Shown here: piece by piece, positions 6,091 to 56,120 of the stretch | Position numbering within the stretch: the stretch's first letter is position 1 | Layout: each line of letters begins with the position of its first letter | From: Zingiber officinale | Taxonomy: Eukaryota > Streptophyta > Magnoliopsida > Zingiberales > Zingiberaceae | Length of the DNA stretch: 64,000 nucleotides | Assembly (NCBI RefSeq): GCF_018446385.1 | Contig: NC_055989.1 | Location: forward strand, 132,335,004 to 132,399,003 | Direction: 5' to 3' | Notes under the pieces: model-generated | Database searches by the model: none | What the model was told of the DNA's origin: nothing | What the model saw: only the letters and a program-made list of their open reading frames with translations | Made by a program: the position numbers and the translations under genes

Positions 6091-7049
6091 TGTTGGTGTA
6101 ATATCCCCTGGGTCAAGTTGACCAGGTTGACTAAACTTGAGTTGACTCAAACTTGAGTCTTGATTTTTGGGTTTTGATGTTTGACAATATGTGAAGATTA
6201 TAGGTGCAATCGTCCGATTGGGGAGATTGTTGGAGCAATTCTCCTCTGGTCAAGGTTTGACCAGTTAAATGTGAAGAAGTCAAGTAGGTTAAGGTTGACC
6301 GGATACTTGACTGGGAAGTCCTAACTGGATGTTAGGCAGTTGGGAAAATCCTGGTGAGTGAAGCCAGGTGAAAGTCCTGGTGAGTGAAACTAGGCAGTTG
6401 AAAATCCTAGTGAGTGAAGCCAGACAGATGAAAGTCCTGGTGAGTGAAGCCAAGCAGTTGAAAATCCTAGTGGTTAGGTGAATGTCCTGGTGAGTGAAGC
6501 CAGGCAGATGGAAAGTCTTGGTGAGTGAAGACAGGTAGATGGAAAGTCCTAGTGAGTGAAGCTAGGCAGGTGGAAAGACCTGGTGAGTAAAACCAAGCAC
6601 GTGCAATCCAGGTGGGTCAAGGTTAACTAGACACCTGGTGTTGGGAAGTCTAAGTAGGTCAAAGGATTGATTGGATATTTGGCACAAGGAAACCCAGATA
6701 GGTTAAGCATAACCAGACATCTGGTAGATGGTAAGTCCAAGTGGGTTAAGGTTGACTGGTCACTTAGCACAAGGAGAAAAGTCCAAGTAGGTCAAAGGAT
6801 TAACCAGACACTTGGTGAAGAAGTCCTAGCAGGTCAAGGTTGACCGAATGCTAGGCATGAGGAATTCCAACAGGTCACAATTGACCGGATGTTGGATTTA
6901 GGAACCCTCGAGCTTGAGTTAAGCAAGTCAAGGGTGGGCAATCGATGAACCAATCGATTTAACCGAAGCCCAATCGATCAGTCGATCGATTGGGAGAGTG
7001 CTGCTATAAACAATAGCTCAATCGATCGGTCGAGTGTTTATCGCAAGCA
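6091..7049 (+). mobile_element. 3' LTR of element A, left part (split by element B)
   Basis: Starts TGTTGGTG after a polypurine tract and resembles the LTRs of G (32662, 38486) and the solo LTR H. It contains modules CCTGGTGAGTGAAGCCAGG and CCAAGT...ACTTGG (6340-6900), then ATCGATCG palindromes (6945-7035). Near 6215-6290 there is an extra ggggagattgttggagcaa segment that looks like a second polypurine-tract/LTR-start. At 7050 the LTR is interrupted by element B and resumes at 26805. Confidence 0.8.
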
Positions 7050-7054
7050 CATAA
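7050..7054. repeat. Target-site duplication of element B, left
   Basis: cataa, identical to 26800-26804 on the far side of element B. Five bases is the usual length for copia integration. Confidence 0.9.
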
Positions 7055-8649: not shown

Positions 8650-9260
8650 TAATCAACTAACCATGCTATATAACAGAATAAAACAAGTAACTTAAAGCTT
8701 ACTGATCATGCTATAAGCTAAACTAAAGAAAGCAATTTAAAGCCTTTGAATCATACGGTGAAAACATGGCAAAGGATGCTATTTTAGTGCTTCTAAACAT
8801 GCTGTAAAATCAAGTATAGAATGATTCTAATCATGCTATAAATAAAGCAAAAGGAAGCTAACTTTGGGGCTTTCTAAGTATGCTGTAATAAAAGCAATAT
8901 ATGTAACTCTACACTTTCTATCATGCTGTAGAAACAGAGCATGGAATGCTACTTTAAGGGCTTCTAAACCTGCTATTAAAACATGACAAAGAATACTACT
9001 TTAAGGCCTTTAAACATGCTATACAAAATAAGGTAATATGCTACTTTAAACTTCTTAAACATGCTATAAACGAAGCGTAAAGGAAACTAATTTGATCTTG
9101 CTAATCATGCTACAAAATAGAGCAAAAGGAAGCTAATTTTGGACTTTCTAAACATGCTGGATAGGGTAGCAAAAGAATGCGACTTTAAGCTTTCTAACAT
9201 GCTGTAAATAGAGCAAAAGAATACAACTTTAAGCTTCTTAAACATGCTGTCCAAAAACTA
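8650..9260 (-). repeat. Degenerate tandem repeat inside LTR of element C
   Basis: More than ten imperfect copies of a 45-60-bp phrase centred on aaacatgctgtaaa...aagctactttaa, each with catgct as the constant core. The same array is at 15557-16160 in the 5' LTR. Confidence 0.7.
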
Positions 9261-9999
9261 AATCCCTAATCAACTTTGATTCTATACCACATGACCTGAA
9301 AGCAAGGAAGGAAACTATAACAGAATATAGAGCTCAGACTGTATACTAATGCTTGCAAGAACTAATCTAGGAACTAGCATAGATGGTTGGAAACTAAAAT
9401 GAAACCCAACGAAAATCCATCTGATGCAAATTCGACAAACTGTCAAGCTACACGATCCAGTTGCAACCCAATGGTAGGAAACATAAATCTGTACAACATG
9501 CTTTAAATTCCAACATAAAGAATCTAACATCTCTAATAGGCAATTCATACAAATGGAATGGAAGGGAAACCTTAGCAATTCGGCTAGGTCCACAGAGCAT
9601 GGAGAGAAAAGCCCTAGCATATGATTTCACTCGGCACAACTAAATCCGAAAGCAAGGAAACGAAATCCAAAGATTCGGAGCAACTCCTACCACAGGTGAG
9701 TAGTACTTACCCTTGATTGCTTGGACTTACAACCGAGAAGAAAGAAGGGTCGGCTAGGGTTCCGGGTGGAGCTCGAAATCTCGGTCCCTTCTCGTCCGTG
9801 CGTTCACCTTGCCGAGAGAAGCTCGGATGTGTGCCGAACCCTCGGAGGGAGAAGCTCGCCGACCGCCAGAGTTAAGCCCTAAGCCGGCTTTCTTCGTTTC
9901 CGCCGCGAGAGGAGAAGAATCGCGCCGTCGCGAGGGAGAAGGAGAAGAAAGATTTCGGAAGAAAATGTTGGGTTTTTGAAAAATCCAAAACCTAATTCC

Positions 10000-10012
10000 C
10001 TTTTATATATAA
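10000..10012 (-). promoter_or_regulatory. TATA box in 3' LTR of element C
   Basis: On the minus strand TATATATAAAAGG, about 300 bp inside the LTR start at 10315. Same as 16895-16906 in the 5' LTR. Confidence 0.55.
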
Positions 10013-10315
10013 GGGTTTTATTCCAAACTATACTATATCCCTAATTCTCTCTATATAGGGTTAACAGAAATCTCCTAGCTTAGTTGGTCAGGCCGGTTTT
10101 GGCTTGGGTCAGTCCGACCCGAGGTCCCGGGTTCAAACCTCGCTTCCAACGCTTTTTGCCTAACTTCTTTGGTTTTGTAAAAATGCTAAACGCCCTCCAA
10201 AAATTATGCAAAAATACTCTAAAAATTTCTAAAAATCTCTAGAATATTTTAAAAGTATTTTCAAATATCTTTATGGACATTTGAAACTCAGAATAGGGAA
10301 AATTGGGTCGTTACA

Positions 10316-14397: not shown

Positions 14398-16611
14398 ACT
14401 GTAACAACCCACCCTTCTTACTTCTACTCTCTAAGGGTGATCATTACCTAACTCCTACTCTACTTACTAGTGTCACTTATGCTATTATTAGCGACACTTA
14501 GATTTATCACGGTTCAGAGAAATTCCTACCGAAAAATTTCGGCAGAATCTCCCCTGTACCGGTGACCAAATCTATAATACACAAGATATATATACACAGC
14601 CACATGCGGCTGGATCACAATTTATTCACAACCACGCAGTAATAAATCATATCATAATCAAAAACTAATCTAGCAACATGAACTAAACTCAATCTCCCAG
14701 AATGAAGCATAATAAGCTACAATGCACATCAAACTCAATCATAACTCATAATTTCATAACAGAAATAAGGAAAATGAACTAGACATAAACTCTAAATAAA
14801 TAAGTCTTGCTAGTCCCCTCTGGACCTCTCCATAGTTTAGTCACCACACACATCCATCATCACCACCACCCTGTCGCCTCCCTTCATATCTTAGCTTTTC
14901 CTTTATCTGCGGTAGGAGGAAAAAAAAAGAAAAGTATCTATAAGCGAAAACGCTTAGTAAGTACTAATCTATCTCACAAAACTCGAAATGCATAAATGTA
15001 ATGCAATAATACTGAAACTGAAATGCTAAAGCAAATCGGCATGTGCTCATGGTATACAGAAAATGAAACTGAATACTAAACATGCTCACTATCTAACAGG
15101 ATAATAAGAAATGAACACTGTAAGCTTAGAATTAAAGAAACTAACTTTTTATTTATTCTAAGCATAAAACTTATTATATTTTCTTATATCCTTGTAATAG
15201 AAATTAATCTTTTAATTTCTATCTTTTACTTTCTTCTTCTTTCTTTCTTTCTTTCTTTACTTAACTTTTCTTTTCTTTGGTTTTCTTTTCTTGGGCCCAG
15301 GCCTAGTACCAACTCATGCGCGTTCCCTAATAGGTTGGGGTTGCGAGCCACCAATCCTAAAAGAGCAGACCTCGGTCTACCAGGGCCAAGACCTCGGAAA
15401 TGGTCACCTGGATTTGTTTAACGACAAGCTCTTGGATGTCGGGTACTAGCCTCTTGCTTGACTTACTTTTTATCTTTCTTATTCTTTTATCTTCCTTATT
15501 ATCTTTTATTAAAGATTGTGGGAGTCCTTTAAATATACTTAACAAGTATGGGTGTATAATCAACTAATCATACTATATAACAGAATAAAACAAGTAACTT
15601 AAAGCTTACTGATCATGCTATAAGCTAAACTAAAGAAAGCAATTTAAAGCCTTTGAATCATACGGTGAAAACATGGCAAAGGATGCTATTTTAGTGCTTC
15701 TAAACATGCTGTAAAATCAAGTATAGAATGATTCTAATCATGCTATAAATAAAGCAAAAGGAAGCTAACTTTGGGGCTTTCTAAGTATGCTGTAATAAAA
15801 GCAATATATGTAACTCTACACTTTCTATCATGCTGTAGAAACAGAGCATGGAATGCTACTTTAAGGGCTTCTAAACCTGCTATTAAAACATGACAAAGAA
15901 TACTACTTTAAGGCCTTTAAACATGCTATACAAAATAAGGTAATATGCTACTTTAAACTTCTTGAACATGCTATAAACGAAGCGTAAAGGAAACTAATTT
16001 GATCTTGCTAATCATGCTACAAAATAGAGCAAAAGGAAGCTAATTTTGGACTTTCTAAACATGCTGGATAGGGTAGCAAAAGAATGCGACTTTAAGCTTT
16101 CTAACATGCTGTAAATAGAGCAAAAGAATACAACTTTAAGCTTCTTAAACATGCTGTCCAAAAACTAAATCCCTAATCAACTTTGATTCTATACCACATG
16201 ACCTGAAAGCAAGGAAGGAAACTATAACAGAATATAGAGCTCAGACTGTATACTAATGCTTGCAAGAACTAATCTAGGAACTAGCATAGATGGTTGGAAA
16301 CTAAAATGAAACCCAACGAAAATCCATCTGATGCAAATTCGACAAACTGTCAAGCTACACGATCCAGTTGCAACCCAATGGTAGGAAACATAAATCTGTA
16401 CAGCATGCTTTAAATTCCAACATAAAGAATCTAACATCTCTAATAGGCAATTCATACAAATGGAATGGAAGGGAAACCTTAGCAATTCGGCTAGGTCCAC
16501 AGAGCATGGAGAGAAAAGCCCTAGCATATGATTTCACTCGGCACAACTAAATCCGAAAGCAAGGAAACGAAATCCAAAGATTCGGAGCAACTCCTACCAC
16601 AGGTGAGTAGT

Positions 16612-16617
16612 ACTTAC
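16612..16617 (-). promoter_or_regulatory. Possible 5' splice site in 5' LTR of element C
   Basis: CAAGG then GTAAGT on the minus strand, about 280 nt downstream of the TATA box; the equivalent in the other LTR is 9705-9710. Pyrimidine-plus-AG sequences such as ctatttacag occur downstream. Splicing here is inference only. Confidence 0.3.
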
Positions 16618-16894
16618 CCTTGATTGCTTGGACTTGCAACCGAGAAGAAAGAAGGGTCGGCTAGGGTTCCGGGTGGAGCTCGAAATCTCGGTCCCTTCTC
16701 GTCCGTGCGTTCACCTTGCCGAGAGAAGCTCGGATGTGTGCCGAACCCTCGGAGGGAGAAGCTCGCCGACCGCCGGAGTTAAGCCCTAAGCCGGCTTTCT
16801 TCGTTTCCGCCGCGAGAGGATGTCGCGAGGGAGAAGGAGAAGAAAGATTTCGGGAGAAAATGTTGGGTTTTTGGAAAATCCAAAACCTAATTCC

Positions 16895-16906
16895 CTTTTA
16901 TATATA
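16895..16906 (-). promoter_or_regulatory. TATA box in 5' LTR of element C
   Basis: TATATATAAAAG on the minus strand at the expected place for the element promoter. Confidence 0.6.
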
Positions 16907-17200
16907 AGGGTTTTATTCCAAACTATACTATATCCCTAATTCTCTCTATATAGGGTTAACAGAAATCTCCTAGCTTAGTTGGTCAGGCCGGTTTTGGCTT
17001 GGGTCAGTCCGACCCGAGGTCCCGGGTTCAAACCTCGCTTCCAACGCTTTTTGCCTAACTTCTTTGGTTTTATAAAAATGCTAAACGCCCTCCAAAAATT
17101 ACGTAAAAATACTCTAAAAATCTCTAGAATATTTTAAAAGTATTTTCAAATATCTTTATGGACATTTGAAACTCAGAATAGGGAAAATTGGGTCGTTACA

Positions 17201-17205: not shown

Positions 17206-17824
17206 GACGCGAAGATGATAGAATTTGCCTCCGGGGGCCCGGTTACCTCCCGGGCGCCCGGACCTAAGTTTTCCAGCAGACTCCTTCCTATAAGAAAAAC
17301 TTTAGTTTGAGACAATTATACCCTGCAACAGATTGTTAGCACAATTTTATAGATAAGAAAAATAGTAATTAGATTCTGTCTCTTCGAGACCGGAATCTAG
17401 TCAAGATCTCGACTTAGAGTTCCGAGATGGTTCTAAGTCGAATCAGCGCCTAAGTTCCCTTCCCAGGAACGCGTCCTCACAGTCACTCCCCTCCAGTGAC
17501 TTACCTCCACTTACCTGCCAGACGTCCGGTCAGCCCTTCAACTCGTCTGGGCTTCGTGCCAGCTATCCGGTCAACCCGTCGACCTAGTTGGACTTCGTGT
17601 CAAACGTCCGGTCAGCCCGTCGACTCGTTTGGACTTCGTGCCAGCTATCCGGTCGACCCGTTGACCTAGCTGGCCTTCGTGCCAGACATTCGGTCAGCCC
17701 GTCGACCTATCTGGACTTCCCCTGCACACTCGGTCTGAGTGTTAGACCAACAGCAAAACTAACTTAACCTATTTTGTCATTCATCAAAACCTTGGTTCGA
17801 CCGTTAATGCTAACCGCACCAACA
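17206..17824 (-). mobile_element. 3' LTR of element B, proximal part with hairpin array
   Basis: Continues from 7502 across element C and ends at ccgcaccaaca next to a polypurine tract. It contains G+C-rich palindromic cccgggcgcccgg near 17250, and at 17510-17735 five units of about 59 bp. Each is a dyad: CCAGACG with CGTCTGG, CCAGCTA with TAGTTGG, CAAACG with CGTTTG, CCAGCTA with TAGCTGG, CCAGACA with ATCTGG. The interior tccggtcagcccgtcgac is nearly constant. Confidence 0.88.
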
Positions 17825-17838
17825 ATCTCCCCCTTTTT
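17825..17838 (-). promoter_or_regulatory. Polypurine tract of element B
   Basis: On the minus strand AAAAAGGGGGAGAT, directly 5' of the 3' LTR. Confidence 0.85.
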
Positions 17839-19120: not shown

Positions 19121-19870
19121 CTAATCTATTAGGCACATCTCTAATTTTCTACGTAGATTACTAAATTCACTTTCAGGGAGGGGTTTAGTAAATATGTCAG
19201 CTAAATTAGACTTTGACTCAATATACTTGAGTTCAATGTCTCTTTTAGTGACATGATCCCTGATAAAGTGATGCCTAATTTCAATGTGTTTGGTCCTGGA
19301 ATGATGCACTGGATTTTTTGTTAAATTAATTGAACTAATATTGTCAATTAACACTTTTACATTTGTAAGGTTTAAGTTAAAATCTTTTAAAGTGTGCACC
19401 ATCCATAATAATTGTGCAACGTATTCTCCTATGGCTATATATTCTGACTCAGTTGTAGATAGCACAACACAGTGTTGCTTTCTACTAAACCAGCTAACAA
19501 GTGATGAACCTAGAAGTTGACAACCACCACTTGTGCTATTGCGGTCTAATTTGTACCCAGCATAATCTGAGTCAGAATACCCTATTAATTCAAAATTGTT
19601 AGTTCTAGGATACTAAATACCTACATTTGTTGTTCCTTTAAGGTATCTAAAGATTCTTTTAACTTGAGTTAAATGTGATTCCTTAGCGCAAGTTTGGTAT
19701 CTAGCGCACATACTAACTGCAAATAAAATATTGGGTCGACTTGCAGTTAAGTATAGTAGGCTACCTATGGCACTCCTATAATATTTTAAGTCAACCGGTT
19801 TTCCATTTGGGTCATTATCTAGGATTGTGTTCATGACCATAGGCGTTTTTATCTCTTTGGTATTTTCCAT
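19121..19870 (-). pseudogene. Element B: end of RT and RNase H
   Basis: On the minus strand [32 protein letters not shown] and VKRIFRYLKGTTNVGI are the copia RT/connection tail. A stop at about 19614-19616 then interrupts. Reading on, the RNase H includes YSDSDYAGYK (the catalytic Asp region), STSGGCQLLGSSLVSW, LSTTESEYIA and the end DIFTKPLP, closing near 19121. RNase H degrades the RNA strand during cDNA synthesis. The frame is displaced from the main RT at about 19870. Confidence 0.85.
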
Positions 19871-21219
19871 TCTGAATTTTTAAGTAATTCTTTAGTGTAT
19901 TTTTGTTGATAGATATAGTTTCCTTCATTTGTTTGTTTGATTTGTAATCCTAAAAAACAAGTTAGTTTTCCTACTAAACTCATTTCAAATTCTTGTTCCA
20001 TTAGATTTGTGAATTCATCTAAAAATTCTGAATTTGTTGACCCAAAGATGATATAATCTACATAGATTTGGGCTATGAAAATATCCTTTTGTATTAACTT
20101 AACGAAAAGGGTTGGGGCAATTTGACCTTGGTTGAACCCTTTAGAAATTAGGTACGAAGTAAGTCTTTCATACCATGCCCTAGGGGCTTGCTTAAGTCCA
20201 TATAAAGCCTTCTTTAATTTAAAGACATAATCAGGGTATTCTAGATTTTCAAACCCAGGCGGTTGTCCTACATAGACTTCTTCCTTTATCAATCCATTTA
20301 GGAAGGCTGACTTAACGTCCATTTGGTATAGCCTGAACCCTTTGTGGGTTGCATAACTAAGTAACATTCTAATGGACTCTAGTCTAGCGACTGGGGCATA
20401 CGTTTCATCATAGTCAAGTCCTTCTACTTGACTTAACCCTTTAGCAACTAGTCTAGCTTTATTTATTGTGATTTCCCCAGTTTCACTTAATTTATTTCTA
20501 AATACCCATTTTGTTTCTATTATCTTTTTATTTTCGGGTGGTGGCACTAAATCCCAAACCTCATTTCTTTCAAATTGGACTAGTTCTTCTTGCATGGCAA
20601 TTACCCAGTCTGGGTCAAGTAATGATTCAGCCACTATTTTAGGTTCAAATTTTGAAATTAATGAAATTTGACTTAGGTTTCTAAAGGATGACCTAGTCTG
20701 AACCTTTAGATCTGGGTCACCAATTATTTGACTAGTTGGATGATTTGGGTTGACTCTAATGGTTCTAGGAGGTTGACTCTCTTGAGGTTGTTCTTCCTCT
20801 TCGTGATCTAGAAATTGATTGGTTCCCTCAGAATTAGTATTTTCTTGAATGAACTCAATTGGTTGAAGTTGGGTTTGTTCTTGGTTTTGTTTGGATTTTT
20901 CAAATTTGACATTAGTAGTTTCTTCAATTCTTAAGGTAACCTTATTATAAACTCTGTGACCTCTACTATTTAGGGAGTATCCTACAAAAATTTCATTTTC
21001 TACTTTAGATGTGAATTTTCCTAAGTGTTCTCTTGTATTTAAGATAAAGGTTGGGCACCCAAATACCTTAAAGTATTTTATATTGGGTTGTTTATTATAA
21101 TAGAGTTCAAAATAGGTTTTATTATGTGTTTTATTTAATGTTGTTCTATTTTGCACGTAGCAGGCTGTACTAACAGCTTCTGCCCAAAAGTACTTAGGTA
21201 TGTTGTATTCATTTAGCAT
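19849..21219 (-). pseudogene. Element B: integrase C-terminal part and reverse transcriptase
   Basis: An open stretch of 456 codons. It starts in the integrase ([26 protein letters not shown]), continues through a variable linker (about residues 120-200) and the copia [98 protein letters not shown]. The active site, usually YVDD, reads YVDYIIFG near 20049-20072: the second catalytic Asp is Tyr. That change alone should abolish polymerisation. It is neither preceded by a start in its own frame nor continuous with the protease, so it is a fragment of a polyprotein. Confidence 0.9.
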
Positions 21220-21818
21220 TGTTCTAGATGCTTCAAGCAGAGTCCTATTTTTTTTTTTCTACAATTCCATTTTGTTAGGGAGTTTTAGGACAGGAGAATT
21301 CGTGATGATAGCCGTTTTCGAGACAATATTTATTAAAGTTATGATTTTTAAATTCTCCCCATTTGTCACTTCTAATTCTTTTGATTTTAAGGTCTTTTTC
21401 ATTTTCAATTTGTTTACAAAAGTTTGTAAATATTTCAAAAGTTTCATCTTTATTTTTTAAGAATTTGACCCAAGTGAACCTAGAGTAGTCATCTACTATG
21501 ACTAGACAATATAAACTTCCATTTATTAATTTGACTCCATGGGAGTCAAATATATTTAGATGTAGAAGTTCTAATATAAAGTTGGTTTGTAAGTAGATTT
21601 TATCTGTTTACCTTGTTGACAAGCATTACATATGGTTGAGTCTAAGTTAGGTAACTTTGGTAAGCCTCTAACTAATCCATTTAATTTGCTTATATTTCTA
21701 AAATTTGTGTGTGACATTCTTCTATGCCATAACCAAGTTTCTTCTTTTTGTGTTAAATAACACTTAACTGAAGAAGTGGTTAAGTTAATTGCATAGATAT
21801 TGTCTTTTCTAAAGCCTT
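21220..21818 (-). pseudogene. Element B: GAG-pre-integrase and integrase N-terminal part
   Basis: Minus-strand frames carry WLWHRRMSHTNFRNISKL and CNACQQGKQ (the HHCC zinc-binding module), then VIVDDYSRFTWV and FCKQIENE, with the region of the second catalytic acid reading RSDKWGEF where the family has a G at the K position, and then [21 protein letters not shown] stop or shift before QNG and others near 21600 and 21835 break the frame. Integrase would join cDNA ends to host DNA. Confidence 0.8.
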
Positions 21819-22189: not shown

Positions 22190-23330
22190 TTATGTGAGAA
22201 TTTGTGTTAATTTTCAAGCAAACAGAATTAAGCTTTTAATTATAAAGGATTTTTTTAAAATTTAAGTTTGGTTTTAAAATAAATTTTTAGGTTAAAAAGA
22301 AAATTTAATTTTAATTTAAAAAAGATTTCAAGTTAAAAATAAATTTAAGTTTAATTTTAAAATATTTTTTAAAAAAAAATAATTAATTTTAAAATAAATT
22401 TTTAAGTTTGAAATAAATTTTTAAGTTTTAAAAACAATTAAGTTTAATTTTAAAATAAATTTTAAGTTTAAAATAAATTAAGTTTAATTTTAAAATGAAT
22501 TTTTAAGTTTTTTAAAAGAATTAAGTTTAAAATGAATTAAGTTTAATAAATTTTTAAGTTTTAAAAAATTAAGTTTAATTTTAAAATTAATTTTTAAGTT
22601 TAAAAAAAAATAAGTTTAATTTTAAAATTAATTTTTAAGTTTTTTTTTTTAAAAATTAAGTTTAATTTTAAAATGAATTTTTAAGTTTTAAAAAAAATAA
22701 GTTTAAATTTAAAATAAATTTTAAGTTTAAAATAAATTAAGTTTAATTTTAAAATGAATTTTTAAGTTAAAAAAAATTAAGTTTTAATTTAAAATAAATT
22801 TTTAAGTTAAAATGAATTTTTAAAATAAATTTTTAAGTTAAAATGAATTTTTAAAATAAATTTTTAATTAAAATGAATTTTTAAAATAAATTTTTAAGTT
22901 AAAATTAATTTTTAACATAAATTTTTTTAAATAAATTTTTAAAATAAAATTTTAAGTTAAAATGAATTTTTAAAATAAATTTTTAAGTTAAAATGAATTT
23001 AAAATAAATTTTTAAGTTAAAATAAATTTTTAAGTTAAAATAAATTTTTAAGTTAATATAAATTTAATTTTTAATTTAAAATAAATTTTTAAGTTAAAAT
23101 TAATTTTTAAAATAAAATTTTAAGTTAAATTGAATTTTTAAAATAATTTTTTAAGTTAAAATAAATTTTTAAAATAAATTTTTAAGTTAAAATGAATTTT
23201 TAACATAAATTTTTAAGTTACAATAAATTAAGTTTTAACTTTGATTTTAATTTAATTTTAATTTAATTTTAATTTTAATTTAATTTGATTTAATTTATTA
23301 TTTTAATTTTAATTTAATTGATTCCTTAGT
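22190..23330 (-). repeat. A/T-only low-complexity block between gag and pol of element B
   Basis: About 1.1 kb made almost wholly of variants of ttaagttttaaaataaattttt and aaaatgaatttttaaaataaa. No coding potential on either strand. It occupies the spacer between the gag tail and the protease, so a continuous Gag-Pol reading frame is impossible. Confidence 0.9.
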
Positions 23331-25684: not shown

Positions 25685-25696
25685 GCTCTGATACCA
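25685..25696 (-). promoter_or_regulatory. Primer-binding site of element B
   Basis: TGGTATCAGAGC on the minus strand, two bases from the 5' LTR edge at 25699; complementary to initiator tRNA-Met. Confidence 0.9.
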
Positions 25697-25698
25697 CT

Positions 25699-26799
25699 TG
25701 TTAGATCATGATCGTTCGATAGAGGGGGGAGGGGTGAATATCGATTTAAAATTATCGAGAGTTCGCAGCGGAAAAGGTAAAGTAAGGAGAGATGACACAA
25801 GTAATTTTTACTTGGTTCGAAACCTATGTCGACTCCTACTCCAAGGCCCGCACACAAGGGTGCTTTCGGTGGGCAATCATTAATAATTCGAAATGAGAAT
25901 TACAATGACAGTACAGGAATTATTAGAAAAGAAATGCCGACAATTATAAAAACTAAGACAGAAAGAGAAAGAGCCTTGTCGGTGAGCTTTTGGCAGCGTC
26001 GCAAGAGCGCTGAAGATCTGATTATGAGTTGTTGTGAGAGCTCCGTCTTTGACCCTCCTTATGTAGGAGGTTCGGGGCGCCTGGAACCTTCAGGGCGCCT
26101 CGACCATGACGTAGCAGACCCAACCAGGAGGCTCCACGTGGCGACGACGCGAAGAAGATAGAATTTGCCTCCGGGCGCTGGGTACCTCCCGGGCGACCTA
26201 ACCTCCGGGCGCCTGGGTACCTCCCGAGCGCCCGGACCCAAGTTTTCCAGCAGACTCCTTCCTGCAAGAAAAACTTTAGTCCGAGGCAATTATACCCTAC
26301 AACACAGATTGTTAGCACAATTTTATAGATAAGAAAAATAGTAATTAGATTTCGTCTCTCTGAGACCGGAATTTAGTCAAGATCTCGACTTAGAGTTCTG
26401 AGATGGTTCTAAGTTGGATCGGCGCCTAAGTTCCCTTACCGGGAACGCGTCCTCACAATCACTCCCCTCCAGTGACTTACCTCCACTTACCTGCCAGACG
26501 TCCAGTCAGCCCTTCGGCCCGTCTGGGCTTCGTGCAGATATCCGGTCAGCCCGTCGACCTAGCTGGACTTCGTGCCAAACGTCCGGTCAGCCCGTTGACC
26601 CGTTTGGACTTCGTGCCAGTTATCCGGTCGGCCTGTCGACCTAGCTGGGCTTCGTGCCAGACATCCAGTCAGCCCGTCGACCTGTCTGGACTTCTCCTGC
26701 ACACTCGGTCAAAGTGTTAGACCAACAGCAAAATTAACTTAACCTATTTTGTCATTCATCAAAACCTGGGTTCGACCGTTAGTGCTAACCGCACCAACA
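25699..26799 (-). mobile_element. 5' LTR of element B with hairpin array
   Basis: 1,101 bp, TGTTAGATC...CCGCACCAACA in plus view, matching 7055-7502 plus 17206-17824. It has an extra cctccgggcgcctgg segment near 26195-26225. The hairpin array is at about 26490-26700: arms CCAGACG with CGTCTGG, CAAACG with CGTTTG, CCAGACA with TGTCTGG, around a constant tccggtcagcccgtcgac core. Confidence 0.9.
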
Positions 26800-32661: not shown

Positions 32662-34302
32662 TGTTGGTGCAATATTCCCTAGGTCAAGGTTGACCGTGTT
32701 GACTGAGCTTGAATTGAGTCAAGCTCAAGTCTTCATGTTGTGGTTTCAATGTTTGACAATGCATGTAGTCAATACATGAAGATTGCAGGTGCAATTGTTC
32801 ATGTGTGAAGGAAAGTCAAGTAAGTCAAGGTTGACTAGATACTTGACGGGAAAATCCTGGTGAGTGAAGCCAGGTGAAAGTCCTAACTGGGAAGTTAGGC
32901 AATGGGAAATCCTAGTGAGTGAAGCTAGGTGAAAGTCCTGGTGAGTGAAGCTAGGCAGATGAAAGACCTAGTGAGTGAAGCTAGGCAGAAGGAAATCCTG
33001 GTGAGTGAAGCCAGGTGAATGACCTAGTGAGTGAAGCTAGGCAGAAGGAAATCCTGGTGAGTGAAGTCAGGTGAAAGACCTAGTGAGTGAAGCTAGGCAG
33101 AAGGAAGTCCTGGTGAGTGAAGCCAGGCACGAGGAAATCCAGATGGATCAAGGCTGATCGGACATCTGGTGTTGGAAAGACCAAGTAGGTCAAAGGGATT
33201 AATCGGATACTTGGCACGAGGAGGAAAGTCCAAGTAGGTCAAAGGGATTGACTGGATACTTGGCACGAGGAGAAAAGTCCAAGTGGGTCAAAGGGTTGAC
33301 CGGACACTTGGTGAGGGTGTCCCAGCAGGTCAAGGGTGACCGGATGCTAGGCACGATGAACTAACAGGTCATGGTTGACCAGATGTTGGTTTAGGAGGCT
33401 TTAGACTTGATTTTGGGAGAAATCATGACCTGGATTGATCAGCCGATCGATTGGCTCATGCACAATCGATCGGTCGATCGATTGGCTCATGCCCAATCGA
33501 TCGGCCGATCGATTGGGCGAGTCTTCACGACAAGCCTCCTCCCAATCGATCAGTGGATCGATTGGGACGAGTGCGCGATCGCACAGAACAGCGCTGGATC
33601 GATCGGTCGATCGATCCATAGCCCCCAATCGATCAGTGGATCGATTGGGAGCTGCGATTTCGTGCGATAAGCCCTAGATCGATCGGCTGATCGATCCAGG
33701 CAATTCCCGAGAGCACAGAGGCACTCTAGATCGATCAGCCGATCGATCCAAAGCCTCCCCGATCGATTGGGAGCAATCCAATAGATCGGGATCCGACCGT
33801 TGGCGCTGGATAAAGCCATTGGCGTGCGATTCCTTAAGTAGAGCTCGCACTGTTCACTCCCGATTTACACAGCAGCTTCTCCACAGCGTTCTTCCACTCT
33901 CACCGCCAGTTCTTGAAGGATCTTGGAGAGACATCCAAGTCAAGAGGTGTGACTACAACAAGAAGAAGAAGTTAGGGTTAGGGTTTTTATTGTACATCTT
34001 GTAAGCTTTTGTTTATCCTGTATTTCCCTTTCTTCTTCTTGTACTAAGAGTGTTGTAGGGCTTCTCCGCCTTTGGTAGTAACCATAAAGGAGTGTTATTC
34101 ATAGTGGAGGGTGTGTGAGTGCGTGGATCCTTGGATTAGTCACCTCTTGTGAGGTGGATACCAAGTAAATCCTTAGTGTTAGCGTTGTGTTTGTTTTCTT
34201 TGTATTTTCCGCTGCATATCTTTGATGAAACAAGCAACGAAGAGCACGATGAGTGCACCGAGCTATTCACCCCCCCCTCTAGCTACATAATCGGACCCAA
34301 CA
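32662..34302 (+). mobile_element. 5' LTR of element G, palindrome-rich
   Basis: 1,641 bp, TGTTGGTGCAATATT...GGACCCAACA. U3 carries CCTGGTGAGTGAAGCCAGG/CCTAGTGAGTGAAGCTAGG modules (32850-33130), CCAAGT...ACTTGG dyads (33139-33390) and ATCGATCG palindromes (33435-33790), including a 28-bp perfect palindrome at 33491-33518. R/U5 ends with a C-run near 34270. The TATA element is weak (ggataaagcc at about 33808). Confidence 0.88.
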
Positions 34303-34304
34303 AG

Positions 34305-34316
34305 TGGTATCAGAGC
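34305..34316 (+). promoter_or_regulatory. Primer-binding site of element G
   Basis: TGGTATCAGAGC, exact match to the initiator-tRNA-Met complement, two bases after the LTR. Confidence 0.92.
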
Positions 34317-36221: not shown

Positions 36222-38472
36222 ATGGGTTAGAGAGTGTCAACTCCGATTAGAAGGGTAGCTAACCCAACTTTGATGAAGTTGGCACTCGGAGAGCATTTTC
36301 AAGGTTATTATTAACCTTTGAAAATGATAAGGGTTATATGTTTACTCTTGGAAAGAGTAAGATGTGTCACATTTTGAGAAATTGGATGATATTTTAAGTG
36401 ACACAAATTGGGAAAATCATAAGAACTACCAAGTTGGGATTTTGGTATGTTCTTAGGAAATTAAAGGCAATTTATGCCTTAACTCAGATGATTACTCCTT
36501 GAAGGAGTAAATTGTGCCAAAATTTGAGGAATATGTTTAATTTAAATTGGCACAAAATTAGGAAAAGCAAATGAAATGTCAAAATTGGGTTTTGGCATTT
36601 TCTTGGGAAATAGTGGGCAATATAGGTTTATTTTTAATCTAGCTAAGGTTTTAGGATACTTAGATAGGTAATCTAGGTATATTTTATTTATGTTAAAACT
36701 TGTCATGCTTTGTTTGCCCATCATATGTCATAACATCATATTTATTTAGCTATTTTTACATTCATATTTTAGTATGAAAAACACAAAATACCATACCATG
36801 TCATGTCATACATACATCATGTAGTTATAGAAATTTTCTTTTGAAAATTATTTCTTTTTGATGTATGTCATAACATCATCATGCATTATTTTATTTCCTT
36901 GTAAATTAAGGACTAATGGCATTTATTAACAAGTAACATCCTTGGTGGATGTTTACAACTCAAAATGCCTAGATAGATATGCATGATCCCTAGATTAGGG
37001 CAAAACCAAAGTTTACATCTCACTAAAGAACTATAAGGTGACTTGTATGTGTTTTAGTACACATTAGATACAAGTGAGATGTTACAATGATGAACAAAAC
37101 TCAAGATGTTGATTTAGTGCATTCTTTTGAGTTTTAGATTCATCAAAACACATAGTTATGTATTTTCCAATCATTGGGAAAGCTAATGTACAAGTCATGT
37201 GCATTGAGGCCAAGGAACATAGTTGGATATTGGTTTTGAAAATCATTTTAAATGCTTTTGGAAAACCTTGATGAAGACTATCTTTTGATAGTGATCATCA
37301 TTGAAGAGTTAGACACAAACTTGAAGAAAACACTAAAGTTTTTACAAGTTTTCATGTTTGTGTCCATCTTTGAAAATATGATATATTTTCTTAGAAAACT
37401 ATTTTTCCATGATAATATGTGCCCTAAATAATGTCTACAATAATTTGTATGATTTTTAGAATTTTGTAGATTTTTCTAGGGGTTTCTGAAATTGACTGAA
37501 ATGGAATTTTAGTTTTTTCAGAGCTTCAATCGATCACCCGATCGATTGAACGGTCTCAATCGATCGGGCGATCGATTGGGACCCAACTCCAATCGATTGG
37601 GAATGCTGATTTTGGCTGGGAAAGCTTATTTTCAGTATTCTAAACCATCTTTAGTCTAGGTAACCATTCCTTACCCCTCAAAATATATTTGTATACATTT
37701 AGGGGGAGTTTTCATGTTGAAAATAAGAATGGATTGGTTAAGGAAGACTAAATAGAGGTTTAGGTTGAGGTTTGGTTTCAATATTGAATTTATGAACCTC
37801 AAAACTTCTAAATTTGGGTTCCTAAAGTTTTAGGGATTCCAAGTCATTGTTGGTGCAATGACAGAAGTTATCTGCATGTTTTTAGGGGGAGTTATTCTTT
37901 AAGGACATGAAAATCTAATTTTCATACACCTTGGAAGGTGGTTAACCTTCTGTCGTGAAAATGCTCAAGGTTGGGCATTTGACTACAATAGAGAGTGGAT
38001 ATCTTCATTGTTCAAGTGGTGCATGCTCATGGATGAGCATGTGATAATAATGAAGGGTATGAGACCTTCATTTGAATCGTGTGTGACCATAGCAAGTGGC
38101 TCTGACACAACAAGTGGAATCATGTGTGAATACAACAAGTGAATATACCAAGTGGTATATGCTCAAGGATGAGCGTTGAGAATAATGAAGGGTATGGGAT
38201 CTTCATTATTGTGTTGTGAGCAATGAGTGAAGTTGTAAACAACGAAGGGTAACTCTGCAGGAGGAGAGTTTGCCCAAAAACTGGGAATGAATTTGATGTG
38301 TGCCGATAGGGGGAGAATGAAGATTTTAAGTTAGACCTTCATTATCTAAGAGGGAGTTTGCCCTCTTAGAGGGAGAATGTAGGGTTTAACTTATGTCTTC
38401 TTTACCTAGTGGCATGAAGAAGGTTGAGGCTATGGGATTAGCCTAACTTAAAGAAGGTATTGTCAAACATCA
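36222..38472 (+). other. Element G non-coding internal region
   Basis: 2.25 kb without protease, integrase or polymerase. The first part repeats a phrase of the form aaaattggcacaaa...tgggttttggcatttt with spacing of 100-150 bp (36360-36620). ATCGATCG-type palindromes appear at 37528-37605. From 37705 it matches the tail of element A, and dyads AATGCTCA...TGAGCAT recur at 37960-38200. Confidence 0.8.
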
Positions 38473-38485
38473 AAAAGGGGGAGAT
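38473..38485 (+). promoter_or_regulatory. Polypurine tract of element G
   Basis: aaaagggggagat directly before the 3' LTR start TGTTGGTGC. Confidence 0.85.
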
Positions 38486-40041
38486 TGTTGGTGCAATATT
38501 CCCCAGGTCAAGGTTGACCGTGTGAATTGAGTCAAGCTTGAGTCTTGATGTTATGATTTCGATGTTTGACAATACATGTAGTCAATGCATGAAGATTGCA
38601 GGTGCAATTGTTCATGTGTGAAGGAGAGTCAAGTAGGTCAAGGTTGACTGGATACTTGACGGGAAAATGCTGGTGAGTAAAGTCAGGTGAAAGTCCTAAC
38701 TGGGAAGTTAGGCAATGGGAAATCCTAGTGAGTGAAGCTAGGTGAAAGTCCTGGTGAGTGAAGCCAGGCAGATGAAAGACCTAGTGAGTGAAGCTAGGCA
38801 GAAGGAAATCCTGATGAGTGAAGCCAGGTGAAAGACCTAGTGAGTGAAGCTAGGCAGAAGGAAGTCCTGGTGAGTGAAGCCAGGCACGAGGAAATCCAGA
38901 TGGATCAAGGCTGATCGGACATCTGGTGTTGGAAAGACCAAGTAGGTCAAAGGGATTGACCAGATACTTGGCACGAGGAGGAAAGTCCAAGTAGGTCAAA
39001 GGGATTGACCGGATACTTGGCACGAGGAGGAAAGTCCAAGTAGGTCAAAGGGATTGATCGGATACTTGGCACGAGGAGAAAAGTCCAAGTGGGTCAAAGG
39101 GTTGACCGGACACTTGGTGAGCGTGTCCCAACAGGTCAAGGGTGACCGGATGCTAGGCATGATGAACTAACAGGTCATGGTTGACCAGATGTTGGTTTAG
39201 GAGGCTTTAGACGTGATTTTGGGAGAAATCATGACCTGGATTGATCAGCCGATCGATTGGCTCATGCCCAATCGATCGGTCGATCGATTGGGTGAGTCTT
39301 CGCGACAAGCCTCCTCCCAATCGATCAGTGGATCGATTGGGATGAGTGCGCGATCGCACAGAACAGCGCTGGATCGATCGGTCGATCGATCCATAGCCCC
39401 CAATCGATCAGTGGATCGATTGGAAGCTGTGATTTCGCGCGATAAGCCCTAGATCGATCGACCGATCGATCCAAGCAATTCCCGAGAGCACAGAGGCACT
39501 CTGGATTGATCAGTCGATCGATCCAAAGCCTCCCCGATCGATTGGGAGCAATCCAATCGATCGGGATCCGACCGTTGGCGCTGGATAAAGCCGTTGGCGT
39601 GCGATTCCTTTGGTAGAGCTCGCACTGTTCACTCCCGATTTACACAGCAGCTTCTCCACAGCGTTCTTCCACTCTCACCGTTAGTTCTTGAAGGATCTTG
39701 GAGAGACATCCAAGTCAAGAGGTGTGACTACAACAAGAAGAAGAAGTTAGGGTTAGGGTTTTTATTGTACATCTTGTAAGCTTTTGTTTATCCTGTATTT
39801 CCCTTTCTTCTTCTTGTACTAAGAGTGTTGTAGGGCTTCTCCGCCTTTGGTAGTAACCATAAAGGAGTGTTATTCATAGTGGAGGGTGTGTGAGTGCGTG
39901 GATCCTTGGATTAGTCACCTCTTGTGAGGTGGATACCAAGTAAATCCTTAGTGTTAGCGTTGTGTTTATTTTCTTTGTATTTTCCGCTGCATATCTTTGA
40001 TGAAACAAGCAACGAAGAGCACGATGAGTGCACCGAGCTAT
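38486..40041 (+). mobile_element. 3' LTR of element G, 3' end lost
   Basis: Closely matches 32662-34262. It differs by small indels in the module arrays (for example one fewer ATCGATCG unit after 39240 and one more CCAAGTA dyad near 38935-39075). It stops at caccgagctatt, exactly where the LTR at 34262 continues into a C-run, and is followed by inverted LTR E. Confidence 0.87.
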
Positions 40042-40969
40042 TTGTAGGTCCCTTTGGAGGCCGGCAAGAGGGGAGGGGTGAATTGGCCTACAAAATAAAA
40101 CCAAAAACCCTTCTCGGATATTCAACTAATTTAAAAGAACTTGTAATTAAAAAGGCAGAGACTAATTAAAACAGAAAATAGACACAGAGGAATTACTTGG
40201 TTTGCAATCAGAGGATTGCTAATCCAAGGCAAAGAAGGCGCACTAATTGATTCTCCTCTGGGCGGAGTAGCCTCTTACAGCGTTGAAAGCACAGAAAGAA
40301 ATAACACAAATGAAAGCGCTGGATTACAAGTAGTTTTTTTTCATTGATCATTGCTTCTGGACCAAGGCTATATTTATAGTCTTGGTCCGGGCGCCTGGAA
40401 GGGTTCCGGGCGCCCCCGGGGGGATAAACTTTATCCCCCAACGGTCAGATTACGAAAATCGCGATCTTAGTCAAAATCATGCTCCGGGTGCCCGGAAGCA
40501 TTCCCGGTGCCCCGTACAGCTCCGGGCGCCCGAAATGGTTCCGGGCACCCCGGAGCAAAAAGTCAACTGCGGTTGACTTTTTGTCCGGGATCACTTCTCC
40601 GTCAAGTCCCAGTCTCGGTCCGGGTCTGTTCGCTCCGGCTCCGCTAGCTTGGGTGATCTCGGCCTTCCGGAATAGGGCTCACCCGAACCCATGTTCCGGC
40701 CTTCTCCTCGAGCAACCTTCCTTCCCGGTTTCTCGTCCCTCGAGCGTCGCGCACGCTCTTCTCGTTCACCGGTGTACTCTTCCGCGGACACCTCGTCCCT
40801 TAGACGCACCGAGCCCGTCGGCTCTCTCCCGTGCCGTCCTTCTCGCTAGCCGCGTCTTCCGCTCGACTTCCTGTGTTCCTAAGCTCCTGCACACTTAGAC
40901 ACAAGGGTTAAACAAACGCAGGACCTAACTTAGCTTGTTTGATCACATCAAAACACCTTGGGGTTCCAA
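40042..40969 (-). mobile_element. LTR E, minus strand, same family as element D
   Basis: On the minus strand TGTTGGAACCCC at 40969 to GGGACCTACA at 40042, 928 bp. It contains a TATA-like ACTATAAATATAG near 40369-40382 and repeated ccgggcgcccgg-type palindromes (40385-40550). The reading frame on either strand at 40479-40898 is LTR sequence. It follows the 3' LTR of G at the breakpoint and is adjoined on its right by its own polypurine tract, so it is the 3' LTR of an element that was otherwise lost. Confidence 0.82.
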
Positions 40970-43623: not shown

Positions 43624-43628
43624 CCGTG
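43624..43628. repeat. Target-site duplication of solo LTR H, left
   Basis: ccgtg, repeated exactly at 45122-45126. Confidence 0.9.
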
Positions 43629-45121
43629 TGTTAGGACCAAAAGTAGCTAGAGGGGGGGGGTGAATAGCTCGTCGCGTTCTCTCGGTGCTCGGCGGTGCTT
43701 GTTTCTTCAGAGATGTGCAGCGGAAATACAAAGAAACAATCACACAACGCTAACACAGTTGGTTTACTTGGTATCCACCTCACAAGAGGTGACTAGTCCA
43801 AGGATCCACACCACGCACGCACCCTCCACTATGAAAACACTCCTTTTCGGTAACTACCGAGGGTGGAGAAACCCTACAAGACTCTCAGTACAAGAAGAAA
43901 GGAAAGGGAAACAAAATACAAGCGCAAAGCTTACAATGAGTACAGAAAACCCTAACCCTAGCTTCTCTTCTGGCCTTTGATCCGCCTCTTGACTTGGAAA
44001 GCTTCCAAGATCCTTCAAGAACTGGCGATCTGATCTTTGAGAGCGCTGTGGAGGAGTTGGCGAGAGATCTGGAGTGAATCAGAGAAGAGGTGCCGAAGGA
44101 AATGAACGCCTGCGGCTTAAATCGACGCTAACGGTCAAATCCCGATCGATTCGAATGTTCCCAATCGATCGGGGAGGCTTTGGATCGATCCACGGATAGA
44201 TCCAGAGCGCCTCTGTGCTCTGGGAAAAATGCCTGGATCGATCCACGGATCGATCCAACGCTTATCGCGCGAAGCAGCATCGTCCCGATCGATTCACTGA
44301 TCGATTGGGACATCTGGATCGATCCACGGATCGATCCAGAGGCTCTCTGTTCGCTAGAAAAAGGCCTGGATCGATCCACTGATCGATCCAGATCCTGGAT
44401 CGATCCACTGATCGATTCAACACTTGGTTTTTGCCCAAAACCAAGTTCCAAGCCTCTCAAACCAACATCCGGTCAACCTTGACCTGTTGGTACATCATGC
44501 CTAGCATCTGGTCACTCCTTTGACCTGCTAGGACTTCCCACCAAGTGTCTGGTCAATCCCTTTGACCCACTTGGACTTTTCTATTCATGCCAAGTATCTG
44601 GTCACTCCCTTGACCTACTTGGACTTCCATCAGATGTCTGGTCAATCCCTTTGACCTATCTGTATTTCCTCGTGCCAAGTATCCAGTCAATCCTTTGACC
44701 TACTTGGACTTCCCACCACCAGATGTCCGATCATCCTTGATCCATCTGGATTTTTCCTTGCCTGGCTTCACTCACCAGGACTTTCACCTAGCTTCACTCA
44801 CTAGGGTTTTCTATCTGCCTAGCTTCACTCACTAGGTCTTTCACCTGGCTTCACTCACCAGGACTTTCACCTAGCTTCACTCACTAGGGTTTTCCATCTG
44901 CCTAGCTTCACTCACTAGGACTTTCCTTCTGCCTGGCTTCACTCACCAGGACTTCCATTCTACCTAACATCCCAGTTAGGACTTCCCAGTCAAGCATCCG
45001 GTCAACCTTGACCTACTTGACTCTTCCTCAATCAAATTCTTATTGTCAAACATCTAAACTCAAACCAAGACTCAGCTTGGTCAACCAGGTCAACCTTGAC
45101 CTGAGGGATGTTGCACCAACA
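43629..45121 (-). mobile_element. Solo LTR H, minus strand
   Basis: 1,493 bp, TGTTAGGACC...TTGCACCAACA in plus view, related to the LTRs of A and G, bounded by ccgtg duplications and lying in intron 4 of the pseudogene. On the plus strand it shows CCTGGCTTCACTCACCAGG and CCTAGCTTCACTCACTAGG modules (44760-44970), CCAAGT...ACTTGG and CAGATG...ATCTG dyads (44480-44760), and GGATCGATCC-type palindromes (44150-44420). A solo LTR arises by recombination between the two LTRs of a full element. Confidence 0.92.
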
Positions 45122-45126
45122 CCGTG
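45122..45126. repeat. Target-site duplication of solo LTR H, right
   Basis: ccgtg, matching 43624-43628. Confidence 0.9.
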
Positions 45127-50261: not shown

Positions 50262-50835
50262 CTCTTGTCTCTTTTTTTCTCATCACACTTTCGTTTTTTT
50301 TTTTCCTTCGACCCTCAGTCACCTATCCTGCCCAGCATTAACCGTGATTTACTCCCTCTGGAATCTTGTGGGGCCAGGGCCAGGGGGCCGCTAGGGTGGT
50401 GGTTCCACCTTTTGCCACACTCCCTCCTTTTTTTTTCCTCAACACACTTTCTCTCTTCTCAATCTCTCCCATCACACTCACTATTTTCTTTTTTTCTCAT
50501 CACACTTTCTCTCTCATCATAATTTCTCTTTCATCATACTTTCTCTATCCTCAATTTCTCTCATCACACACTCTCTCCTCATTTTTTCTCATTACATTTT
50601 CTCTCTCATTCATCCTCTCCCATCATATTTTTTCTCTCATCTTCTCTCATCATGCTCTCTCTTATCACACTCTCTTTTCTCATTTTCTCTTATCACATTT
50701 TCTCTCTCTTCATTCTTTCTCATTACACTTTCTCTCGTATCATACTTTCTCTCTCATCATACTTTCTCTCTCATCATTCCATCATATTTTTCTCTCACAT
50801 TCATCTTTCTCTCACATCTAATTTTTTTCTCTTAT
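50262..50835 (+). repeat. Pyrimidine-rich low-complexity tract
   Basis: Built of ttctctcatcacactttctc words, with long open frames that are only a by-product of the composition. Related tracts lie at 55755-56120 and 58985-59312. At about 50325-50430 it contains a SINE-end-like phrase (ccgtgatttactcc...ccttttgcca). Confidence 0.85.
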
Positions 50836-51460
50836 TTTGCTTTAAAGGTAAAAAATGAAATTTTGATCTATTCCGATAGAAAATATGCATCTAACCAAAC
50901 ATTACTTTTAAGAGTGATATTTATACTCATACTCATTCTCATTTCACAATATAATTATTTTTATTCTGATTTCTATTCCTAGAAAAGAAACAAACGCCCT
51001 CTCAATTTAGTTCCTCTCCCTTCACCTATCGAAGCATATTTTCTGAAGAATATAAATACATGTATGTTATATTGTCATCTTCTATTTTTTTAAAAAATAT
51101 GTATTTTTTTATAAAATAAAAATAAAAAAATACGTAAATGAAACGTAACCTAAATATTTCTCTTTCTCTTCCTTCCATTAATAAATTTTCAATCATCTCA
51201 TCCGAATAAACCGAATAAAGGGTTAATTTGATATTTTTTCCAATTTTTTTTGTTTTTTTTTAGAATTTTACTCTCTGCATCGATCGACGTGATTAATTTT
51301 AAAAGATAATTAACCTTTTAAAAAATGAAAAGATTTTTTTTATTTTTTTCAAATGCCAATGCTTTAATCCAGGCCGACCCGTACCCGGCCAAACATTTAG
51401 GCGGGTCGGATCGTATTCAAACGAACGGTTCCACCACCACCTGACTCCAATTCACGTGGT
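50836..51460. other. A/T-rich intergenic DNA downstream of the carbonic anhydrase gene
   Basis: No gene. 50890-50960 (catactcattctcatttc) is an inverted relative of the gggtatgagtatgag segment at 55300-55330 and 58550-58570, suggesting a short repeat family in both orientations. Confidence 0.5.
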
Positions 51461-55550: not shown

Positions 55551-55762
55551 GTTCCCTCGGGACAGTCTAGTGGCTAGTGCATGAGGTGTTGCCACCATGA
55601 GATCTGGGGTTCAAATCTCGGTAAAACCAATGTAAATGCCTCTCTTATGTGTGCTAGTCACTATTCCAAATGCTAGTAGTCGCCCGTTATTTACCTACTT
55701 CATGTTAGCCCTGGTACGGGTTGGCGGAGGCGTTGGTGGCGAGCGTATTCGCCTTTTGCCAC
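55551..55762 (+). mobile_element. tRNA-derived SINE, copy 2
   Basis: gttccctcgggacagtctag, A-box-like tagtggctagtgc, B box GGTTCAAATCT at 55608-55618, body tgtgctagtcactattccaa..., end cgtattcgccttttgcc. Followed by the pyrimidine tract. Confidence 0.78.
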
Positions 55763-56120
55763 CATACTTTTTTTATTCTCATTATCTCATCACACTTTCT
55801 CTCTTATCAAATTTTCTCTCTCCTCATTTTCTCTCATCACACGCTCTCTCTTCTCATTTTCTCTCATTATACTCTCATTCTTTATTCTCTTCCATCATAC
55901 TTTCATTTTCATTAGACTTTCTCTCTCTTCATCCTTTCTACTCATGCTTTCAATCTCACCATACACTCTTTTCTTATTTTTTTTCTCATTACACTTTTTC
56001 TTTCATTATACTTTCTTTCTCTTCAATCTTTTTCATCATTCTCTCTCATCATTATTTATCTCTAATCATAATTTTTCTTTCCTCAAGTTCTCCTATCAGA
56101 CTCTCTCCTCATTCCCTTTT
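55755..56120 (+). repeat. Pyrimidine-rich tract, unit 1
   Basis: ttctctcatcacac-type words, as at 50262-50835. The long open frames here are not genes. Confidence 0.85.

Follow-up and report, generated by a model that had tools for sequence, protein, structure and literature searches.

What keeps the two arms of a palindrome complementary while their sequence changes? The question is raised by rows of dyads in the long terminal repeats (LTRs) of retrotransposons in the window, the whole 64,000-nucleotide stretch of Zingiber officinale DNA analysed here. A sequence-only reading of the window had claimed that the ability of these dyads to pair, and not the sequence of their arms, is preserved.

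Retrotransposons of the window and their dyad arrays

The window is occupied by nested plant LTR retrotransposons (Table 1). Element G (32662 to about 40042) consists of a pair of LTRs and, between them, an internal part that contains a gag-like open reading frame. Element B (26799 down to 7055, minus strand) splits the 3' LTR of element A, with CATAA at both borders. The 3' LTR of B is itself split by another element, the 2.8-kb LTRs of which (7501-10315 and 14398-17200) are 98% alike. G and B show most of the marks of Sireviruses (Ty1/copia) that were tested, the exception being the gag match of G, which at 22.2 bits is below the cut-off of 27. The zinc knuckle of G is above the cut-off, and no pol-like open reading frame of at least 70 residues was seen in its internal part. 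Element B matches Retrotran_gag_2 (2.9e-13) and RVT_2 (5e-66). AGGGGGAG, the Sirevirus PPT octamer, stands immediately before AT and the TG of the 3' LTR at 38476-38483 in G (LTR from 38486) and at 17827-17834 on the minus strand in B (LTR from 17824); several copies of the octamer lie ahead of the G 3' LTR (37701, 37884, 38308, and 38476). The junction that follows the Sirevirus 5' LTR, CA/A(T or G)TGG and TATCAGAGC, is present as exact AGTGGTATCAGAGC at 34303-34316 in G and at 25685-25698 (minus) in B. Close to their LTR ends, G, H, and B each have a C-rich stretch, recognised by reading the sequence, that corresponds to the C-rich integrase signal of Sireviruses.

The reverse transcriptase of element B has no relative in viral_contigs. 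Among the 120 matches listed for this region (19849-21258, minus), the highest identity was to P0040, 73% over 64% of the query; P0040 is recorded as a 1.3-kb contig of Salmonella enterica, and is likely plant DNA within a bacterial assembly. Overlapping direct repeats occur inside element B (22209-23319, many repeats, 68-79% alike), and at 50408-50838 with copies near 55752-56114 and 58974-59318 (about 67-76% alike).

The LTRs of A, G, and H contain three unrelated classes of dyads: long (L), short (S), and ATCGAT-type (Q). From the LTR start, the order is an armless W-box-like palindrome, unit L0, the S array, the L array, and the Q units. In the L unit, two 7-base arms enclose, in this order, GGTCAA, a loop, TTGACC, and GGA. 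The S unit has 5-base arms (CCTGG or CCTAG in G) around TGAGTGAAG, and the Q dyads of G have the form ATCGATC....GATCGAT. The 5' LTR of G holds nine S dyads, seven L dyads including L0, and eight Q-type dyads. Besides L0, its L units have five arm types, and those of H six. Element B has the L-unit plan in common with A, G, and H, with different arms. A Q-like dyad, CCCGATCGATT...AATCGATCGGG, is located outside the LTRs, at 37537-37568 in the internal part of G.

Table 1. LTRs and dyad arrays of elements A, B, G, and H, in window positions
Feature	Position	Strand	Remarks
Element A, 3' LTR, first part	6228..7054	+	resumes past element B from about 26805
A, unit L0	6280..6310	+	
A, S array	6350..6597	+	decayed
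A, L array L1-L7	6608..6896	+	
Element B, 3' LTR	from 17824	-	
B 3' LTR, L-type units	17518..17714	-	same five units as in the 5' LTR, with one-sided changes
Element B, 5' LTR	26799-25699	-	
B 5' LTR, five L-type units	26494..26689	-	arms CCAGACA, CCAGCTA, CCAAACG, CCAGCTA, CCAGACG
Element G, 5' LTR	32662..34302	+	repeat of 38486-40042; TGTTGG start; CA end before AGTGGTATCAGAGC at 34303
G 5' LTR, unit L0	32816..32846	+	arms TCAAGTA/TACTTGA
G 5' LTR, S array, 9 units	32856..33127	+	CCTGG or CCTAG arms around TGAGTGAAG
CCTAACT...AGTTAGG dyad inside the S array	32882..32899	+	7-letter scan
G 5' LTR, L array	33139..33390	+	L1 33139-33169, L2 33181-33214, L3 33230-33263, L5 33279-33311, L6 33321-33351, L7 33360-33390
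G 5' LTR, Q array	33430..33791	+	ends approximate
Element G, 3' LTR	38486..40042	+	LTR repeat, 3' end missing; AGGGGGAG at 38476-38483 and AT just before
G 3' LTR, unit L0	38629..38659	+	
G 3' LTR, S array, 7 units	38669..38884	+	
G 3' LTR, L array	38896..39196	+	one unit (L3b) beyond the 5' LTR set
G 3' LTR, Q array	39236..39566	+	ends approximate
Element H, solo LTR	43629..45121	-	flanked by CACGG (45122-45126 and 43624-43628, minus strand), as seen by reading the sequence
H, unit L0	44990..45020	-	
H, S array, 7 units	44761..44950	-	every unit perfectly paired
H, L array L1-L7	44461..44749	-	
H, Q array	44141..44420	-	ends approximate

The seven dyads that the sequence-only reading had named are present. 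A scan for 7-letter arms recovered six of them, at 32882-32899, 33139-33169, 33181-33214, 33279-33311, 6608-6638, and 6825-6855. The seventh, CCAACA...TGTTGG at 6867-6895, has arms of six letters, was read in the sequence, and is extended by one more pairing base (6866-6896). The short modules with a paired G/A and C/T change were likewise found. The loop-side core had been described as nearly constant, which does not hold throughout, since B mostly has GGTCGAC...CTGACC, and the L1 units of G and H have GATCAA...TGATC.

The two LTRs of G contain nine (5') and seven (3') S units, and the 3' LTR has one extra L unit; whole units were thus gained or lost in G after or during its last replication. 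In the 35 of 39 LTRs with L units found at no more than three core edits, the L order often consists of a CCAGATG-CCAAGTA block, present one to four times, followed by CCAAGTG, CCTAGCA, and ACCAACA. In the S arrays of 36 LTRs (L048-L104 and the window), types alternate above chance: 118 of 192 neighbours differ, compared with a mean of 94.3 and a maximum of 115 in 2,000 shuffles.

The core halves GGTCAA and TTGACC fit the W-box, TTGAC(C/T). In the first 740 bases of the LTR, this motif occurs 13-17 times in A, G, and H, compared with 1.3-1.5 times in shuffled sequences, and three times in B, compared with 0.8 (300 shuffles each). The core may plausibly act as a stress-inducible enhancer, as a candidate of the WRKY type. 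The distance between the core halves ranges from 2 to 5 bases, and in L1 of both G and H the two W-boxes are missing while the stem is still paired.

The statement of the sequence-only reading that palindromic LTR motifs are known in Sireviruses is borne out by Bousios et al. 2010 (PMC2829016). According to it, Sirevirus LTRs contain palindromic repeated motifs (RMs), one consensus motif per element, with a CGG-CCG core except in Tnd-1. As in the RMs, many dyads are clustered in the upper LTR, upstream of the TATA box, and the definition of an RM (at least eight palindromic copies per element, mostly in the upper LTR) applies to the 5' LTR of G. The RM of Tnd-1, ACAATCGATTGT, as given in that paper, resembles the Q class. 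Unlike the RMs described there, the S and L arms lack the CGG-CCG pairing core, and Q is based on ATCGAT. In contrast to the rule of one consensus per element, three classes coexist here, and their arms vary in matched pairs between neighbours.

Covariation of the arms

The L units were chosen by their core alone, ignoring the arms, which yielded 41 units in six LTRs. The sequence-only reading had proposed a covariation test against shuffled units; in it, 93.4% of the arm pairs were Watson-Crick, compared with 61.6% after shuffling of the right arms, and none of 20,000 shuffles reached the observed value. A structure tool applied to the aligned units gave a covariation score of 0.450 versus 0.241 (0 of 500 shuffles), and sliding the arms by one to three columns cut the pairing from 92.5% to 12-38%. 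The core alone gave weak values with the same tool, for example a covariation score that was reached by 16 of 500 shuffles. In an R-scape-like test (own script), in which substitutions were dealt randomly onto the branches of a tree of 37 distinct units among the 41, the six varying arm pairs ranked 1-6 of 406 column pairs. The E-values of the arm pairs were 0.0006-0.0073 over 13 tested pairs, and none of the core pairs was below 0.5.

A larger sample from the genome contained 182 units (core edits of at most 2, from 230) in 39 LTRs, so that the dyads are not confined to the window, and the absence from other copies of the family that would have told against the sequence-only reading did not occur. 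In this sample, 93.7% of the arm pairs were paired (shuffled mean 60.3%, maximum 65.3% in 5,000). With 92 distinct rows, the tree-aware test placed the same six arm pairs within the top eight. Taken over all 406 pairs, their E-values were only 0.46-1.34, and two non-pairs, (2,23) and (23,26), ranked first and third. The weak E-values are probably due to the small number of independent changes, many copies sharing few old ones.

When core matches with up to four edits were collected from genome stretches and the window, the 710 matches separated into 131 with all seven pairs, 44 with six, 11 with five, and 524 with four or fewer. Exact cores numbered 51, of which 40 had seven pairs, nine had six, one had five, and one had fewer. 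We read many of the low-pairing matches with a near-exact core as the armless palindrome of the LTR start or as units on the opposite strand. Pairing in the L class stops at about arm pair 7: positions 1-7 are far above the permuted values, pair 8 barely exceeds them (0.229, permuted maximum 0.226), and pairs 9-10 are inside the permuted range. The window alone contains 12 perfect L arm types. Counting states, these require at least nine paired changes, and the shortest tree that a heuristic search produced has 15.

The other classes behave in the same way. At 178 Q centres, the outer pairs 1-3 are paired in 82-94% of cases versus 39-65% when shuffled, pair 4 is no higher than its shuffles, and pair 5 is barely higher. 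Pair 2 of Q occurs in three Watson-Crick states (G:C 85, T:A 31, and C:G 30 of 178). Among 282 S modules in the sampled arrays, the states were G:C 143, A:T 104, G:T 14, A:C 6, and others 15. All three classes, L, S, and Q, have covarying arms.

The genome, counted over 3,090,333,446 bases in 211 contigs, contains 110,714 exact S modules with G:C, 99,394 with A:T, and 4,783 with A:C. By our own arithmetic, about 38,000 A:C modules would be expected under independence, even if the uncounted G:T form numbered 100,000. The same patterns read backwards were found 0 times each genome-wide. The LTR retrotransposon with these dyads is very abundant. The S patterns had no match in viral_contigs or genome_contigs. 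The B-type core had one match each in two viral and 44 genome records, the 44 being bacterial by title; these matches were taken as chance.

Timing and location of arm changes

Since the tree-aware test was weak in the larger sample, arm changes were mapped onto a tree made from sequence outside the dyads. The tree comprises 30 LTRs: in 31 of the 39, chain and flank were of sufficient length, and element A was subsequently omitted; the stretch before L0 was available in 21 of the 30. On this dyad-free tree, units L5-L7 switched 13 times between different Watson-Crick pairs, went from paired to mismatched 24 times, and returned twice. The two-sided changes are of five distinct kinds, at matching positions of the array, and two of the kinds are double transversions: C:G to T:A at pair 2 of L5, C:G to T:A and C:G to A:T at pair 2 of L6, and A:T to C:G at pair 1 and C:G to T:A at pair 6 of L7. 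Some of the 13 double changes, recurrences included, may reflect error or conflict in the tree, or exchange between copies.

The two LTRs of an element are equal at insertion. Automatic alignment of the G LTRs misplaced part of the array; therefore, arms were compared between units matched by label. In G and B, comparison of the two LTRs gave differences at 7 of the 84 arm pairs, all one-sided. The likely LTR pairs L062/L063 (K2P 0.025) and L101/L102 (0.028) have one arm difference, which is one-sided, and none, respectively. L069 and L070, located 12 kb apart with a K2P of 0.060 and possibly an LTR pair, have three arm differences, all one-sided. Between neighbouring units within an LTR (four LTRs), 52 differences were two-sided and paired, 6 were two-sided with not both units paired, and 17 were one-sided. 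Two-sided change between lineages, with one-sided change alone since insertion, makes it likely that the force operates in the replicating lineage rather than on resident DNA.

Half-changed states are present in several copies: CTAAGTG/CACTTGG beside CTAAGTG/CACTTAG, ACCAATA/TGTTGGT beside ACCAATA/TATTGGT, and TCAAGTA/TACTTGG beside TCAAGTA/TACTTGA. In each, the half-changed pair is T:G, which RNA hairpins tolerate. On the tree, the half-changed copies do not group as sisters with the fully changed copies, and thus show the persistence of such states, not that they were steps. One copy, L103 (C1:3008500-3009900), carries the hybrid CCAGATG/CACTTGG, in which two neighbouring units were likely fused within the core and pairing was broken.

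Divergence between elements was compared at L5-L7 in 27 of the 30 LTRs. It amounts to 9.6% in the arms, 6.6% in the core half-sites, 16.0% in the loop and bulge, 19.5% in the spacers, and 21.7-38.6% downstream. In three LTR pairs used as a control, there were few differences anywhere (arms 1 of 126, far downstream 12 of 408). The array is therefore likely to be constrained, as the arms and core half-sites diverge less than the loops, spacers, and downstream sequence. The claim that the ability to pair is kept stands, in that pairing was kept beyond unit duplication, with new paired types at matching array positions. Its other half, that the arm sequence is not kept, was too strong, as the arms of L5-L7 are also conserved by position between elements, with the mean difference given above.

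A general bias towards G.U pairs was considered and set aside, as the counts are mixed. The 1,410 S cells include 66 GU and 29 AC (9 versus 7 by kind), and the five outer pairs of the core have 21 GU and 7 AC; the innermost core pair adds nine AC and no GU, giving 21 versus 16. The L arms have no such lean, with 20 GU and 19 AC in one sample and 26 and 22 in another. On the tree, internal branches carry 5 GU and 2 AC, and terminal branches 3 and 7. Predicted folds give no single direction either. The S arrays of A, G, and H fold better in the sense than in the antisense strand by z-score, whereas the antisense strand is better in all four L arrays tested (H: -10.3 versus -4.8). Some of the predicted array folds pair one unit with another. 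The S cells, the internal branches, and the sense folds of the S arrays speak for RNA pairing; the L arms, the terminal branches, and the antisense folds of the L arrays speak against it.

Explanations for the maintenance of pairing

We favour, tentatively and with slightly less than even confidence, the explanation that the matched-pair arms of the upstream LTR dyad array are kept by selection for within-strand pairing, as predicted RNA hairpins. RNA pairing is, narrowly, the likeliest account, its main rivals being copying during reverse transcription and a constraint at the DNA level. The force would act in the generations that replicate through RNA, and pairing would be restored by a second change following a first. 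Because the array lies in U3, its transcript would carry a row of hairpins near the 3' end, which may serve stability, packaging, or dealings with small-RNA silencing. The GGTCAA...TTGACC core would give the same stretch of DNA a WRKY-type enhancer function. More speculatively, and doubtful in our view, the LTR may be an addressable row of RNA hairpins, in which each unit has its own arm code, neighbouring codes tend to differ and each arm can thereby recognise its partner, a new code originates when one arm changes and the other then changes to match, and three unrelated classes do so at once.

Template switching at quasipalindromes makes imperfect inverted repeats perfect. Arms may match without any need for pairing, if the nascent strand folds on a quasi-palindrome during reverse transcription and one arm is templated by the other, a process restricted to replication. 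We consider this somewhat unlikely as the explanation, and the data do not separate it from an RNA hairpin. It fits the timing, with two-sided change between lineages and one-sided change alone after insertion, and it fits the like behaviour of three unrelated dyad classes. It also fits the C:G to A:T double transversion between copies L058 and L072, the S and L arrays of which otherwise differ at few places. Templated mutation between imperfect inverted-repeat arms has likewise been described for quasipalindromes, in E. coli (PMC7202029); the process described there concerns DNA replication, whereas the timing here would need reverse transcription. Against copying, the half-changed states predate insertion, both members of likely LTR pairs carrying them (ACCAATA/TGTTGGT in L062 and L063, CTAAGTG/CACTTGG in L101 and L102), so there was no immediate correction. 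Moreover, the inverted repeat of the core is part of the same fold and nevertheless departs from symmetry mostly on one side, and copying alone leaves the conservation of arms by position unexplained. The symmetry might instead be kept in the DNA of the promoter, either because both half-sites are bound by a dimeric protein or because the dyads form cruciforms, which we regard as rather improbable. The enrichment of the W-box core halves in A, G, and H agrees with such a constraint, as do the antisense folds of the L arrays, which are as good as the sense ones, and the symmetry common among LTR regulatory boxes (PMC2829016). With a degenerate half-site, each arm would be free to vary on its own, but A:C and G:T combinations are seldom seen. 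The arms, while matched within a unit, differ between neighbours in a single LTR, which leaves no fixed arm sequence to be bound and fits a plain dimer site poorly. The variable core-half spacing and the paired L1 stems of G and H that have lost both W-boxes also speak against a protein site. The data make an ordinary dimeric protein site less likely.

It is very improbable that no pairing force exists and that a few old dyad types were merely spread by unit duplication and gene conversion. Growth by block repetition does occur in the arrays (CCAGATG-CCAAGTA up to four times), the S types alternate more than in shuffles, the S class by itself requires a single old paired change, and the tree-aware test of the larger sample is weak. 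Duplication copies existing types and makes no new paired ones; since new ones appear at matching positions on the dyad-free tree, duplication alone is insufficient, and the number of paired changes behind the 12 perfect arm types of the window is likewise at odds with it. The likely fusion in L103 breaks pairing, so exchange by itself scrambles arms. Simple duplication as the sole cause was rejected on the strength of the shuffle and state counts together with the two-sided changes on the dyad-free tree.

In maize Sireviruses, palindromes have been linked to small RNAs (Bousios et al. 2016, as cited in PMC10760457). Clusters of LTR palindromes, there with strong predicted RNA structure, are a feature shared with the ginger elements, whereas the maize motif quoted there is a fixed one, CACCGGACNNNGTCCGGTG. 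The main text of PMC10760457 does not mention covariation or compensation (the terms 'covari' and 'compensat' occur 0 times). Among the matches listed from the open PubMed Central literature, judged by title and the opening of the abstract, we found no description of covarying LTR dyads, in agreement with the sequence-only reading, which had held such an array not to be a standard description. Within that literature, palindromic Sirevirus LTR motifs are known, and arms covarying in matched pairs appear to be new.

Earlier work has interpreted LTR palindromes as regulatory sites or silencing triggers, and PMC10760457 raises the question of why elements retain a structure able to feed silencing. 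Arms that differ in matched pairs imply that pairing itself is maintained. With more than 200,000 exact S modules in one genome, these LTRs constitute a natural experiment on RNA structure versus DNA binding versus copying during reverse transcription.
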